Below are positions 7,528 to 63,950 of a DNA stretch of 64,000 bases, one piece after another; positions within the stretch are counted from its first letter, which is position 1; every line of letters starts with the position of its first letter. The notes under the pieces were generated by a model. It worked only from the letters and a program-made list of their open reading frames with translations. It was not told where the DNA came from and made no database searches. Position numbers and translations under genes: made by a program. Origin of the DNA: Oscillospiraceae bacterium. GTDB lineage: Bacteria > Bacillota > Clostridia > Oscillospirales > QAMX01. Location of the stretch: the NCBI GenBank assembly GCA_015067715.1, contig SVLY01000003.1, forward strand, positions 1 to 64,000, given 5' to 3'.

Positions 7528-7944
7528 AAAAAAACAAGGGCACACTCAGCGTGTTATCCTTAACGGATAACACGAGTCAAATCCGTCTTCGACGGGTGAA
7601 ATCCACCTCTGGTGGATGAAATCGCTTTCGCGATGAAATCCTGCTTCGCAGGGTTGTATTCAGACGGATTTGATTTCATCCAAGGACTTGTCCTTGGATT
7701 TCATCTGAACGAAGTGAAGATTTCATCGTTGCCGCGCAACGATTTCATTAAACCAACAGAAAAAGAGATAACATTTCGGATTGACCCGATTTGTTATCTC
7801 TTTCTGTCGTTATAAGGGTTTGGGCAACTGCCCATGTTTGCGTTTGACTGGTCAAATGCGATGCTTGCACTTTGCTCAAAGCATAAGTTCTCCGCTAAGA
7901 ACGTCACCCTTCAGAGCGCAGGGTTTTGAGTGTGCCTTTGTTTA
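7528..7944. repeat. Composite hairpin-chain element A bracketed by terminator-like inverted arms
   Basis: Left arm aaacaagggcacactca pairs with right arm tgagtgtgcctttgttt; inside, hairpins separated by tgaaat/atgaaat in the first half and atttcat in the second half. Confidence 0.7.
7758..7911 (+). ncRNA. Candidate conserved structured RNA domain (copy 1)
   Basis: aaagagataac..gttatctcttt helix; gggcaactgccc; gcgtttgac tg gtcaaatgcgatgc; ttctccgctaagaa; same ordered motifs in 56680..56850 with compensatory changes. Confidence 0.5.
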
Positions 7945-13603: not shown

Positions 13604-14015
13604 TAGTAAAAGGAAACACCTTTTGTCTGGGACAAAAGGTGTTTCCTTTTACAATGAAATTTGCCCTGCGGGCAAGTGAAATCGCTTCGCGATGAAATAT
13701 TTACTTCGTAAATGTGAAATATTCGCTGACGCGAATGTGGGCAAATTCATTTCTATTCGCCCTACCGCAATTATTCATTATTCATCAGCGAAGCGGCTTC
13801 ATTATTCAATATTCATTCGTCCCACGTGTCATCCCGCTTGCCTCCCGGCAATACAGTTTCACACATTCATCGCAGCAAAAAGCCCCCCTTGCCTAAAGGG
13901 GGGGGTAGGGGGGGATTCCGTAAGCCTTCCCCGGCAACACCGTGCCAAAGGCGATGTTTGCGGGCGTTCACAGAACGCCCCTACGGGCAAAAGGTAAACC
14001 TTAATCCCAACGTTC
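13604..14015. repeat. Interspersed repeat island 1 (hairpin chain E plus palindromic modules)
   Basis: Left ~190 bp is near-identical to 22416..22606; modules 'tatcatcccg..cggcaatacagtttcacacattcatcgcagcaaaaagcccccctt' and 'ttccccggcaacaccgtgcc' recur at 15 kb and 22 kb. Confidence 0.85.
13606..13652. repeat. 22-bp perfect palindrome, 3-nt loop TGG
   Basis: gtaaaaggaaacaccttttgtc TGG gacaaaaggtgtttccttttac. Confidence 0.9.
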
Positions 14016-14952: not shown

Positions 14953-14996
14953 AATACGATTACAAAACGGTTACAGTTTGGTTACAAAACGGTAAC
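14953..14996 (-). promoter_or_regulatory. Four 11-bp direct repeats upstream of the lipoprotein promoter (candidate response-regulator site)
   Basis: On the - strand: GTTACCGTTTT GTAACCAAACT GTAACCGTTTT GTAATCGTATT, ending 16 nt before TATAAT (14931-14936). Confidence 0.6.
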
Positions 14997-16040
14997 AGCG
15001 AGCCCTCCGTGCCTTCGGGGCACCTCCCCCGAGAGGGGGAGGTTTATTAGGGTCGATTTGTAAATCGACCCTACCGCAATTAGTCATTCGTTCCAACGTA
15101 TCATCCCGGTTGCCTCCCGGCAATACCGTTTCACACATTCATCGCAGCAAAAAGCCCCCCTTGCCGGGTGAGGGGGGTAGGGGGGGATTCCGTAAGCGTT
15201 CCCCGGCAACACCGTGCCGATGGCGACGTTTGCGGGAGGCTGATAGCCTCCCCTACGGGTGCAAAGGTAAACCGCGAGCCGTAGGGGCGAACTGCGTTCG
15301 CCTATCTTGCCGTATCATCCCGTTTGCCCCTCCCGGCAACATTGTGCCGATGGCAACGTTTTCCGGACGCCCCGGGAGGGGCGTCCCTACGGGCAAACAG
15401 ATAAACCGCACACCGTAGGGCGGGGGCTTGCTCCCGCCGAACCCCTGTGAAGGCACACGGTTTACAAACTGTGTAAGGACATGGTATACGCCCCAAGGCT
15501 CCCTCTCCGAGGGAGCTGGATCGGCCAAAGGCCGAGACTGAGGGAGTGAATGCACCAACGTATCATCCCGGTTGCCTCTCCCGGAGACATTGTGCCAAAG
15601 GCGACCTTTTCCGGACGCCCCGGGAGGGGCGTCCCTACGGGCACTCCCACGTATCCGCGGGCGATTTAAAAATCGCCCGAGGCATATACAATCGGGGCGA
15701 TTTAAAAATCGCCCCTACCGCAACTTTTCACTCTTCACTATTCTCTATTCACTCTTCACTTAATCCCAACGTGACGGACCGTCGGGGCGCCGGTCCCTAC
15801 GGGTGCAATGGGCGATTTAAAAATCGCCCATAATAAACCGCAACCCGTAGGGGCGAACTGTGTTCGCCCGTTTTACCGCCAATATGCCGTTGTTCAACAC
15901 CGTGCTAAAGGCGCCCTCCGTGCCCCCTCCGCCCCTGCGGGGCACCTCCCCCGAGAGGGGGAGGTTTATATGGGGCGATTTAAAAATCGCCCCTACCTCT
16001 TCTTTTCTCTGTTCACTATTCACTATTCACTCTTCTCTGA
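14997..16040. repeat. Interspersed repeat island 2: mosaic of short palindromic modules
   Basis: Recurring 'cctccgtgcc..cggggcacctcccccgagagggggaggttta', 'ggggcgatttaaaaatcgcccctacc', 'gtaggggcgaactg[c/t]gttcgcc', 'ggctccctctccgagggagctggatcggccaaaggccgagactgagggag'. Confidence 0.85.
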
Positions 16041-16087
16041 AATATAACAGAGGCACACTCCCCGTGGAAGTGTGCCCCTGTTATATT
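16041..16087 (-). terminator. Terminator after queA
   Basis: ataacagaggcacact ccccgtgga agtgtgcccctgttat with T-rich flank. Confidence 0.75.
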
Positions 16088-22415: not shown

Positions 22416-22960
22416 TAGTAAAAGGAAACACCTTTTGTCCCAGACAAAAGGTGTTTCCTTTTACAATGAAATTTGCCCTGCGGGCAAGTGAAATCGCTTC
22501 GCGATGAAATATTTACTTCGTAAATGTGAAATATTCGCTGACGCGAATGTGGGCAAATTCGTCTCAAATCGCCCTACCGCAATTATTCATTATTCATCAG
22601 CGAAGCGGCTTCATTATTCAATATTCATTTGTCCCCATGTATCATCCCGTTTGCCTTCCGGCAATACAGTTTCACACATTCATCGCAGCAAAAAGCCCCC
22701 CTTGTCTAAAGGGGGGAAGGGGGGATTCCGTAAATCTTCCTTATGCGCCCCCCTTGCCGGGTGGGGGTAGGGGGGGGATTCCGTAAGCGTTCCCCGGCAA
22801 CACCGTGCAAAAGGCAACCTCCGTGCCCCCTCCGCCCCTGCGGGGCACCTCCCCCGAGAGGGGGAGGTTTATATGGGGCGATTTGAAAATCGCCCCTACC
22901 GCTTCTTTTCACTTTTCTCTGTTCACTATTCACTCTTCTCTAAAACACAACAGTATCATC
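22416..22960. repeat. Interspersed repeat island 3 (hairpin chain F plus palindromic modules)
   Basis: Near-identical to 13604..13790 at the left, and to the 15911..15995 module (cctccgtgccccctccgcccctgcggggcacctcccccgagagggggaggtttatatggggcgatt) at the right. Confidence 0.85.
22418..22464. repeat. 22-bp perfect palindrome, 3-nt loop CCA
   Basis: gtaaaaggaaacaccttttgtc CCA gacaaaaggtgtttccttttac; loop is the reverse complement of that at 13628-13630. Confidence 0.9.
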
Positions 22961-26173: not shown

Positions 26174-26315
26174 AGAAAAAAAGCCTCGTAACGAGGCTTT
26201 GGAGCAAATACAAGCGGATGGGCGGTGTATCCATCATCTCAGGTACTTCTAACGAAGTGCGTCGGGAACCATTTCCGACCTCGCCTGTATCTGCAGAGTA
26301 TTATATTAATTCTCC
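26174..26315 (-). ncRNA. Candidate stand-alone small RNA, family not identified
   Basis: Promoter TTTACA-17-TATAAT on the - strand (26350..26322); ends in terminator aaagcctcgttacgaggctttttttc; closing helix gcagatacag/cttgtatttgc; no ORF of note. Confidence 0.6.
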
Positions 26316-26351: not shown

Positions 26352-26525
26352 AAAAAACACCGCCCCGATAAAGGGTGTTGTTCTATTCGCCATAAACTGT
26401 CCGCAGGACAATATCACTATGCGTAGCATAATATCACTGCGAAGCAATATAACTCGCCGTCAGGCGAATAGAACTGGCGTGATACTCCGAAAAGAGTATC
26501 ACGCCAAAGCTGAACGGTGTTTTTT
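26352..26525 (-). repeat. Hairpin-chain element C bracketed by aaaaaacaccg/cggtgtttttt
   Basis: On the - strand: ggcgtgatactc ttttc ggagtatcacgcc hairpin, then gttctattcgcc ... ggcgaatagaac 12-bp outer helix enclosing hairpins spaced by ttatatt/agtgatatt. Confidence 0.7.
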
Positions 26526-56449: not shown

Positions 56450-56868
56450 AAAAAAGCTCCCTTTTTATGGCGTAATGTCCTTATGGGACATTACGCCAAC
56501 GAAATAAATCCCTCACGGGATTTATGAAATATCCTATGGATATGAAATATTGCTTCGCAATGTGAAATACGCTGCGGCGTATCGGGATTTATTTCATTTC
56601 ACGTTCGGGCGCAGTCCGAATATTTCACAATTCTCGAAGAGAATTATTTCACATTTTGCGTCAGCAAAATATTTCAATAAAAAGAAAGAGAAGGAACAAC
56701 CGATAGGTTGAGCCTTCTCTTTTTCTGTTGCAAGTGGGTTCGGGCAACTGCCCGACTGCATTTGTGCATACAAATGCGATGCCGGTTCTTTTCAGCAGAA
56801 ATGATAGAAAACGGTGCTTTCTAAAATTCTCCGTTAAGAACACAATCCTATCCAAAAGGGAGCTTTTT
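56450..56868. repeat. Composite hairpin-chain element B bracketed by terminator-like inverted arms
   Basis: aaaaagctccctttt / aaaagggagcttttt; atggcgtaatgtcc ttat gggacattacgcca; hairpins spaced by gaaat, then by atttca. Confidence 0.7.
56680..56850 (+). ncRNA. Candidate conserved structured RNA domain (copy 2)
   Basis: aaagagaagg..ccttctcttt; gggttcgggcaactgccc; gcatttgt gcat acaaatgcgatgc; ttctccgttaagaa; aligns with 7758..7911. Confidence 0.5.
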
Positions 56869-63835: not shown

Positions 63836-63937
63836 GTTATATTCGCCTTCGGCGAGTTATATTGCTGCGCAGTTATATTCGCCTTTGAGGCGAGTGATAT
63901 TGCTACGCAGTGATATTCGGCCTTCGGCCGAGTTAAA
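63836..63937 (+). repeat. Hairpin-chain element D directly after galE
   Basis: Hairpins cgccttcggcg / gctgcgc / cgcctttgaggcg / gctacgc / cggccttcggccg separated by (a)gttatatt or agtgatatt. Confidence 0.8.
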
Positions 63938-63950
63938 CAAAAGATAAAAA

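Follow-up and report, generated by a model that had tools for sequence, protein, structure and literature searches.

Miniature elements with a Gut-1-like half and an RNA-like end, probably moved by large serine recombinases into intrinsic terminators

Multi-targeting large serine recombinases are under development as tools for genome insertion; what has so far been described of their natural target is no more than a loose A-rich/AA/T-rich motif. For Cp36, one of the TndX/TnpX-like recombinases with a DUF4368 domain, the motif is A-rich on the 5' side, has an AA core and is T-rich on the 3' side, and terminators and hairpins are unmentioned in the main text of that paper (PMC10083194). Bacterial MITEs are short, multi-copy, intergenic and gene-less, with inverted ends and autonomous relatives that have the same ends, and a review of them makes no mention of serine recombinases (PMC10969869). 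BrickBuilt, a MITE of Porphyromonas gingivalis, is rich in repeats and stem-loops and is often found near terminators (PMC4596501). The Gut-1 RNA (RF01706) is filed as a small RNA gene. Then, could a serine recombinase drive satellites of the MITE kind? No literature on serine recombinases at terminators or on serine-recombinase MITEs was found, which is weak evidence of novelty since subscription papers were mostly outside the search.

Here, we analysed a stretch of 64,000 nucleotides of an Oscillospiraceae genome (the window), in which a sequence-only reading had reported two copies of an RNA-like domain. Judged by sequence comparison, this domain makes up the right-end module of a non-autonomous, gene-less mobile element of ~370 bp. 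We propose, with a probability of roughly 0.83, that this is a miniature element moved in trans by large serine recombinases (Resolvase + Recombinase + Zn-ribbon + DUF4368). The element spans 7548–7912 in copy 1 (365 bp) and 56469–56851 in copy 2 (383 bp), and runs from a palindromic left half-site through a Gut-1-type hairpin array and the reported domain to a right half-site. The copies in the same genome have a common plan, that is, a GCGTGTTATCC-TTAA-CGGATAACACGC-like palindrome, an array with GAAAT/ATTTC or GTTATATT linkers, H1, H2, H3 and then TTCTCCGYTAAGRACATCAC. The last of these, H4 of the sequence-only reading, is the inverted repeat of the left end of the element. Like MITEs (PMC10969869), the elements are short, intergenic, multi-copy and free of a recombinase gene, with ~20-bp inverted ends that autonomous relatives share; the difference is that a serine recombinase, with a 2-bp core, appears to take the place of the DDE transposase as partner.

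In copy 1, the palindromic left half-site (AGCGTGTTATCC-TTAA-CGGATAACACG; 7548–7574, plus strand), which repeats the right end in inverted orientation and is common to other copies, is followed by a folded, Gut-1-like hairpin array with GAAAT/ATTTC linkers (7575–7756, plus strand). The H1 hairpin (7758–7803, minus strand) has covarying arms and a minus-strand T-run, and is proposed to be a terminator that faces inward from the right end; a minus-strand terminator scan listed only its inner TCGGGTCAATCCGA hairpin with a T-rich tail. H2 and H3 (GGGTTTGGGCAACTGCCC and GCGTTTGACTGGTCAAATGC; 7816–7859, plus strand) are conserved in 26 copies, with H3 covarying at its loop end. The right half-site, TTCTCCGCTAAGAACGTCAC plus 3 nt (7888–7910, minus strand), contains H4 and belongs to the sequence family of the right ends of serine-recombinase elements. 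An identical dinucleotide, TC, lies at both ends (7546–7547 and 7911–7912), exactly 5 nt outside the 7-mer anchor. Junction comparison shows a split host terminator around the element, whose left half, an A-tract plus GGGCACACTC (7528–7547, plus strand), pairs with 7927–7936 and whose right half ends in TGAGTGTGCCTTTGTTT (7913–7943, plus strand). This site is atypical, with the core at the inner end of the stem and outside the loop.

Copy 2 is built in the same way. The left half of its split terminator, AAAAAAGCTCCCTTTTT with the core AT at 56467–56468 (56450–56468, plus strand), is followed by the palindromic left half-site GGCGTAATGTCC-TTAT-GGGACATTACGCC (56469–56497, plus strand), the hairpin array (56498–56682, plus strand), the covarying H1 hairpin with its putative terminator role (56685–56722, minus strand), H2 and H3 (56736–56777, plus strand), the right half-site TTCTCCGTTAAGAACACAAT plus 3 nt (56827–56849, minus strand), and the right core AT (56850–56851) with the terminator half CCAAAAGGGAGCTTTTT (56850–56868, plus strand). 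The outer flanks, AAAAAAGCTCCCTTTTT (left) and AAAAGGGAGCTTTTT (right), are complementary. Copies 1 and 2 both sit between convergent genes: copy 1 is flanked by those for GH92 and an AraC-type regulator, copy 2 by those for a pyruvate formate lyase-like and a rhamnosidase-like enzyme. A third, deleted copy (26370–26505, minus strand) has the palindromic left half-site, the Gut-1 array and the outer right end GAACAACACCC without H1–H3; its cores are TT/TT and its split terminator is AAAAAACACCG..CGGTGTTTTTT. Close to it lies a match to skipping-rope RNA (RF02924; 70 bits, 26209–26289, minus strand).

All of the motifs that had been reported in the two copies were recovered in the same order, at or a few bases from the positions given for them. 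The H1 arms are at 7762–7773/7792–7803 in copy 1 and 56685–56694/56713–56722 in copy 2, H2 (GGGC/GCCC) at 7822–7833 and 56742–56753, H3 at 7840–7859 and 56758–56777, and H4 at 7888–7901 and 56827–56840. A covariance model of the domain, R1, built from 26 copies, finds only two strong matches in the window, which are the reported copies (132 bits for copy 1; 121 bits at 56674–56846 for copy 2); the next one, of 33.5 bits, overlaps copy 1 on the opposite strand. The fold of the domain beats all 200 shuffles (z = -5.8), and the full elements fold with z = -10.1 and -7.4. Among the 26 aligned copies, 43 cells are double-changed and still paired, compared with 15 in shuffles (0/500); the signal is lost when the pairing partner is slid. 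It should be noted that this count is not an independent probability because the 26 copies are related, and that shuffles can likewise be beaten by related sequences and by palindromic DNA. As proposed by the sequence-only reading, H1 and H3 vary and stay paired, with double changes in both, and no double compensatory changes were found in H2 and H4 among the 26 aligned copies. H4 (TTCTCCGYTAAGAA), offered as an RNA motif or hairpin, is better explained as a recombinase half-site. Nor did the extra closing pair AAGGGT/ACCCTT of copy 1 hold, since ACCCTT is the outer edge of the right half-site plus the crossover core and differs in other copies.

The domain has no named Rfam family, as had been stated, for a scan gives no match even at E <= 1, and with relaxed thresholds only Gut-1, one tRNA and one chance match appear. 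Is the domain an independent structured RNA, related to Gut-1, which acts as RNA and hitchhikes in the elements? Such a reading accounts for the covariation, the stable folds and the conserved H2–H3 loops, and an H2–H3-like motif is also present upstream of the cargo gene of one element (L087). However, H4 is a half-site, H2–H3 is inverted relative to the element end in another element (L101), the copy at 26370–26505 sits in a terminator without H1–H3, copy 1 yielded no sigma-70-like promoter, and palindromic DNA would give the same covariation. We thus regard an independent RNA as possible, though doubtful. What stands of the orphan structured RNA suggested earlier is a conserved, base-paired and repeated sequence with compensatory changes; what does not is a free-standing RNA gene, in the place of which we find the end module of a mobile element. 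Within that module, H1 is probably a terminator, and H2–H3 is a conserved module that may have a role as RNA. H2–H3 recurs upstream of cargo genes (L087 and L009), and its orientation is flipped in L101 (positions 1028–1375, G043:C10) and likewise in L074, L086 and L193; consequently, the modules appear to shuffle.

A set of 30 complete elements, comprising 26 miniature or cargo elements and 4 recombinase elements, was aligned to the anchor by hand. An identical 2-bp core was found at both junctions, at an offset of 5 nt, in 26 of the 30 (permutation mean 10.4, maximum 18 in 2000) and the cores are unequal in the other 4, while at other offsets from the conserved end the shared bases of these elements were not above chance. 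Identical cores were also found in all 10 new complete copies outside the set from which the rule was derived, which were retrieved with the domain model and handled by script. Of the 19 in the full scripted set, earlier copies and truncated ones among them, 13 share the core at an offset of 5, and at any other offset at most 4 do. Recombinase elements have AA as their core, and so do most miniatures (AA and TT being one core read on opposite strands), with AT the next most common; AA accounts for 30 of 41 sites. Miniature cores may also be AT, TA, TC or TG, which one attP core without change of lineage would not yield. A shared 2-bp core at a fixed point amid unrelated sequence is what serine recombination predicts. 

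These junctions also speak to the reading of the elements as ordinary MITEs of a palindrome-preferring DDE transposase with a short target duplication. The inverted ends, the length of ~370 bp, the copy number and the intergenic positions would all suit it, and some sites resemble 4–5 bp duplications by eye (CGATA, CTAT). However, the two sides share exactly 2 bp, at a single offset, with flanking offsets at chance, so that no target-site duplication of the DDE type is present; the same ends bound serine-recombinase genes, and none of the complete elements examined shows a DDE gene between such ends. A DDE transposase is therefore improbable. Duplications of 4–5 bp, seen by eye at a few sites, were ruled out by the offset scan.

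Serine-recombinase genes are indeed found between matching ends. The ends that bound the miniatures also bound elements of 5–13 kb that encode a large serine recombinase of the DUF4368 type. In four genomes, the same end bounds an inward-strand gene for such a recombinase (Pfam Recombinase, Zn_ribbon_recom and DUF4368), which has a PDB match to TnpX. A GTDB scan gave 73 relatives, and the exact 20-mer TTCTCCGTTAAGAACATCAC lies ~53–58 bp past the end of the recombinase match (~55 bp after the stop codon) in 8 of 29 loci scanned, with close variants at others of the 29. A complete element of 12.7 kb (L200, G304:C35:40400–53800) encodes an intact recombinase of 553 aa with the Resolvase catalytic domain, and thus has Resolvase, Recombinase and Zn-ribbon near one end, while the window copies are gene-less. 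Just inside each of its ends is an inward-facing terminator. As cargo it carries an FRG-domain protein, a type III restriction-modification pair and a DUF4435-containing ATPase with a PADLOC match to AriAB, that is, defence cargo parked in a terminator. In another case (L138, 1217–6176), the ends are ~5 kb apart and the recombinase is N-terminally truncated; this stretch also encloses chromosomal-looking genes, YitT-like and pyruvate kinase-like by sequence. The recombinase elements of G302 and G306 span contigs.

The sequence-only reading had also considered a remnant of a TnpB/IscB guide RNA (IS200/IS605-type), and a structured 3' end next to an element boundary agrees with this. The 20-bp inverted ends on both sides and the shared 2-bp core are, however, unlike IS200/IS605-type ends. 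Between the matching ends of intact relatives, where tnpB/iscB or tnpA would be sought, there are large serine recombinases or single cargo genes instead, with no tnpB/iscB in the complete elements examined, and such a remnant is very unlikely.

Where are the elements inserted? When the flanks are joined at the core, an intrinsic terminator is rebuilt, with an A-tract, a GC stem, the core AA/TT, the other side of the stem and a T-tract; for example, AAAAAACAGCCGCAAG[AT]CTTGCGGCTGTTTTT, GAACTCCTGCC[TT]GCAGGAGTTCTTTTTT and GCACCTTCCGT[AA]ATGGAAGGTGTTTTTT. A terminator-like form (stem >= 7 plus T-tract) is seen at 25 of 30 sites against 1.5% of random positions, and the flanks of recombinase right ends are T-rich in 32/37 against 13%. 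The mean stem is 10.7 in the real sites and 3.5 when the left and right halves are re-dealt among the sites, which preserves composition (maximum 4.8 of 1000). The joined flanks are true dyads, because the stems collapse upon re-dealing. Across 41 sites, the frequency of A is 0.78–0.83 at -15 to -13 and that of T is 0.88–0.90 at +13/+14. With the tract peaks at such fixed positions, the recombinase may read the A- and T-tracts at a fixed phase, and its reading of the dyad is putative. Orthologous empty sites were not found for the flank of copy 2 in G001–G003 or for G373 against its genus.

Group IIC introns favour terminator-like stem-loops as well, which is the point in favour of a derivative of such an intron. 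They insert beside the stem, not in the loop, and lack inverted ends, and no Rfam group II intron match was obtained in the window or in eight sampled loci; an intron derivative is thus extremely unlikely.

Taken with the core, the terminator statistics indicate that terminator loops probably serve serine recombinases as attB, and that these enzymes probably move the miniatures in trans. In the proposed mechanism, the attP of the element, in which both ends meet around AA/TT, would be synapsed by the recombinase with a terminator that acts as attB, and H4 would serve as the DNA half-site of the recombinase. Integration would take place at the terminator loop and would spare genes. Since there are inward terminators inside both ends of the 12.7-kb element, termination would be preserved for an interrupted host gene; in the miniatures, H1, with its minus-strand T-run, could restore termination from the right. 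Mobilisation in trans is suggested by the shared ends and cores. Against it, the assembly of the genome of the window (92% complete) holds no recombinase of the clade, and recombinase matches are present in 15/396 genomes (E <= 1e-150), far fewer than the 57/396 with miniatures, and few genomes have both (e.g. G373 and G397).

Compared with the TndX/TnpX-like recombinases described so far (PMC10083194), those considered here have the same domains, the AA core and the A-rich/T-rich target. The differences are that the targets here can be read as intrinsic terminators with real dyads, and that gene-less miniature derivatives are added. A terminator rule would explain the published motif of Cp36 (PMC10083194), for the present sites conform to that motif and have a dyad in addition. 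The reading of intrinsic terminators would be a biological rule, insertion where genes end, which would explain the relaxed specificity and predict insertion sites in bacteria; terminators as attB, if true, would form a gene-sparing target class with very many sites per genome. The copy of BrickBuilt described in PMC4596501 is located outside the terminator, which stays intact, whereas the elements here split theirs. A recombinase class would also be added to those able to drive MITE-like satellites. We consider it moderately probable that there is a DUF4368 branch for which intrinsic terminators are the natural attB and which supports gene-less satellites with termination-rebuilding ends, Gut-1 being at least in part a component of these satellites.

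As for Gut-1, the left half of the element matches this family. The array of copy 2 reaches 68.5 bits (56497–56573), above the cut-off of 50, that of copy 1 falls just under it with 49.7, and the H1–H4 domain itself gives no match. Although Gut-1 is filed as a small RNA gene, several of its copies here are flanked by recombinase half-sites within a mobile element, which suggests that this catalogued family is partly mobile-element DNA.

The elements are not confined to one genome and are spread over many gut bacteria. About ten or more copies were found in the genome of the window (2.69 Mb, 103 contigs). Among 297 genomes of the order, 32 contain the 21-base end pattern; the reversed-pattern control gave a single match, and many matches to the end pattern lie at contig ends, as expected for recent multi-copy repeats. 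The domain model matches in 57 of 396 genomes and 38 of 168 genera of the order. The elements travel between lineages, because copies occur in distant families and at least one of them, in another family, is 93% identical.

Several cargo-bearing relatives were also observed. L087 (1595–2790, G031:C33) has the same ends and a Gut-1 array, with the H2–H3-like motif upstream of a HAD-hydrolase gene, and its cores are TT/TT. L009 (1431–2993), of ~1.56 kb, is on contig C102 of the same genome as the window, with cores AA/AA in the terminator AAAACCCCGGAGG/ACTCCGGGGTTTTTT; it contains a peptidase S51-like gene, another ORF that resembles REP-associated transposases and has no Pfam match, and GGGTCTGGGCAACTGCCC. 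L059 (1500–2990, G240:C37) carries a gene with a nucleotidyltransferase domain in the terminator AACAGCCGCTTCGCG..TTGCGAAGCGGCTG. In the same genome, a solo 29-bp palindrome, GCGTGATGTCCTTAACGGACAAATCACGC (L097, 958–986, G240:C54), lies in the terminator CCCCGCTATA..TATAGCGGGG and is probably a deletion scar. Within the window, further Gut-1 matches at 13652–13725, 22464–22537 and 63870–63943 are not tied to these ends, and the first two belong to near-identical composite repeats next to a different palindrome (AGTAAAAGGAAACACCTTTTGTC). Dense composite intergenic repeats (GTAGGGGCGA.. and CGATTTAAAAATCGCCC.. units), apparently unrelated to the element, occupy 13740–14010, 14990–16060 and 22560–22900.
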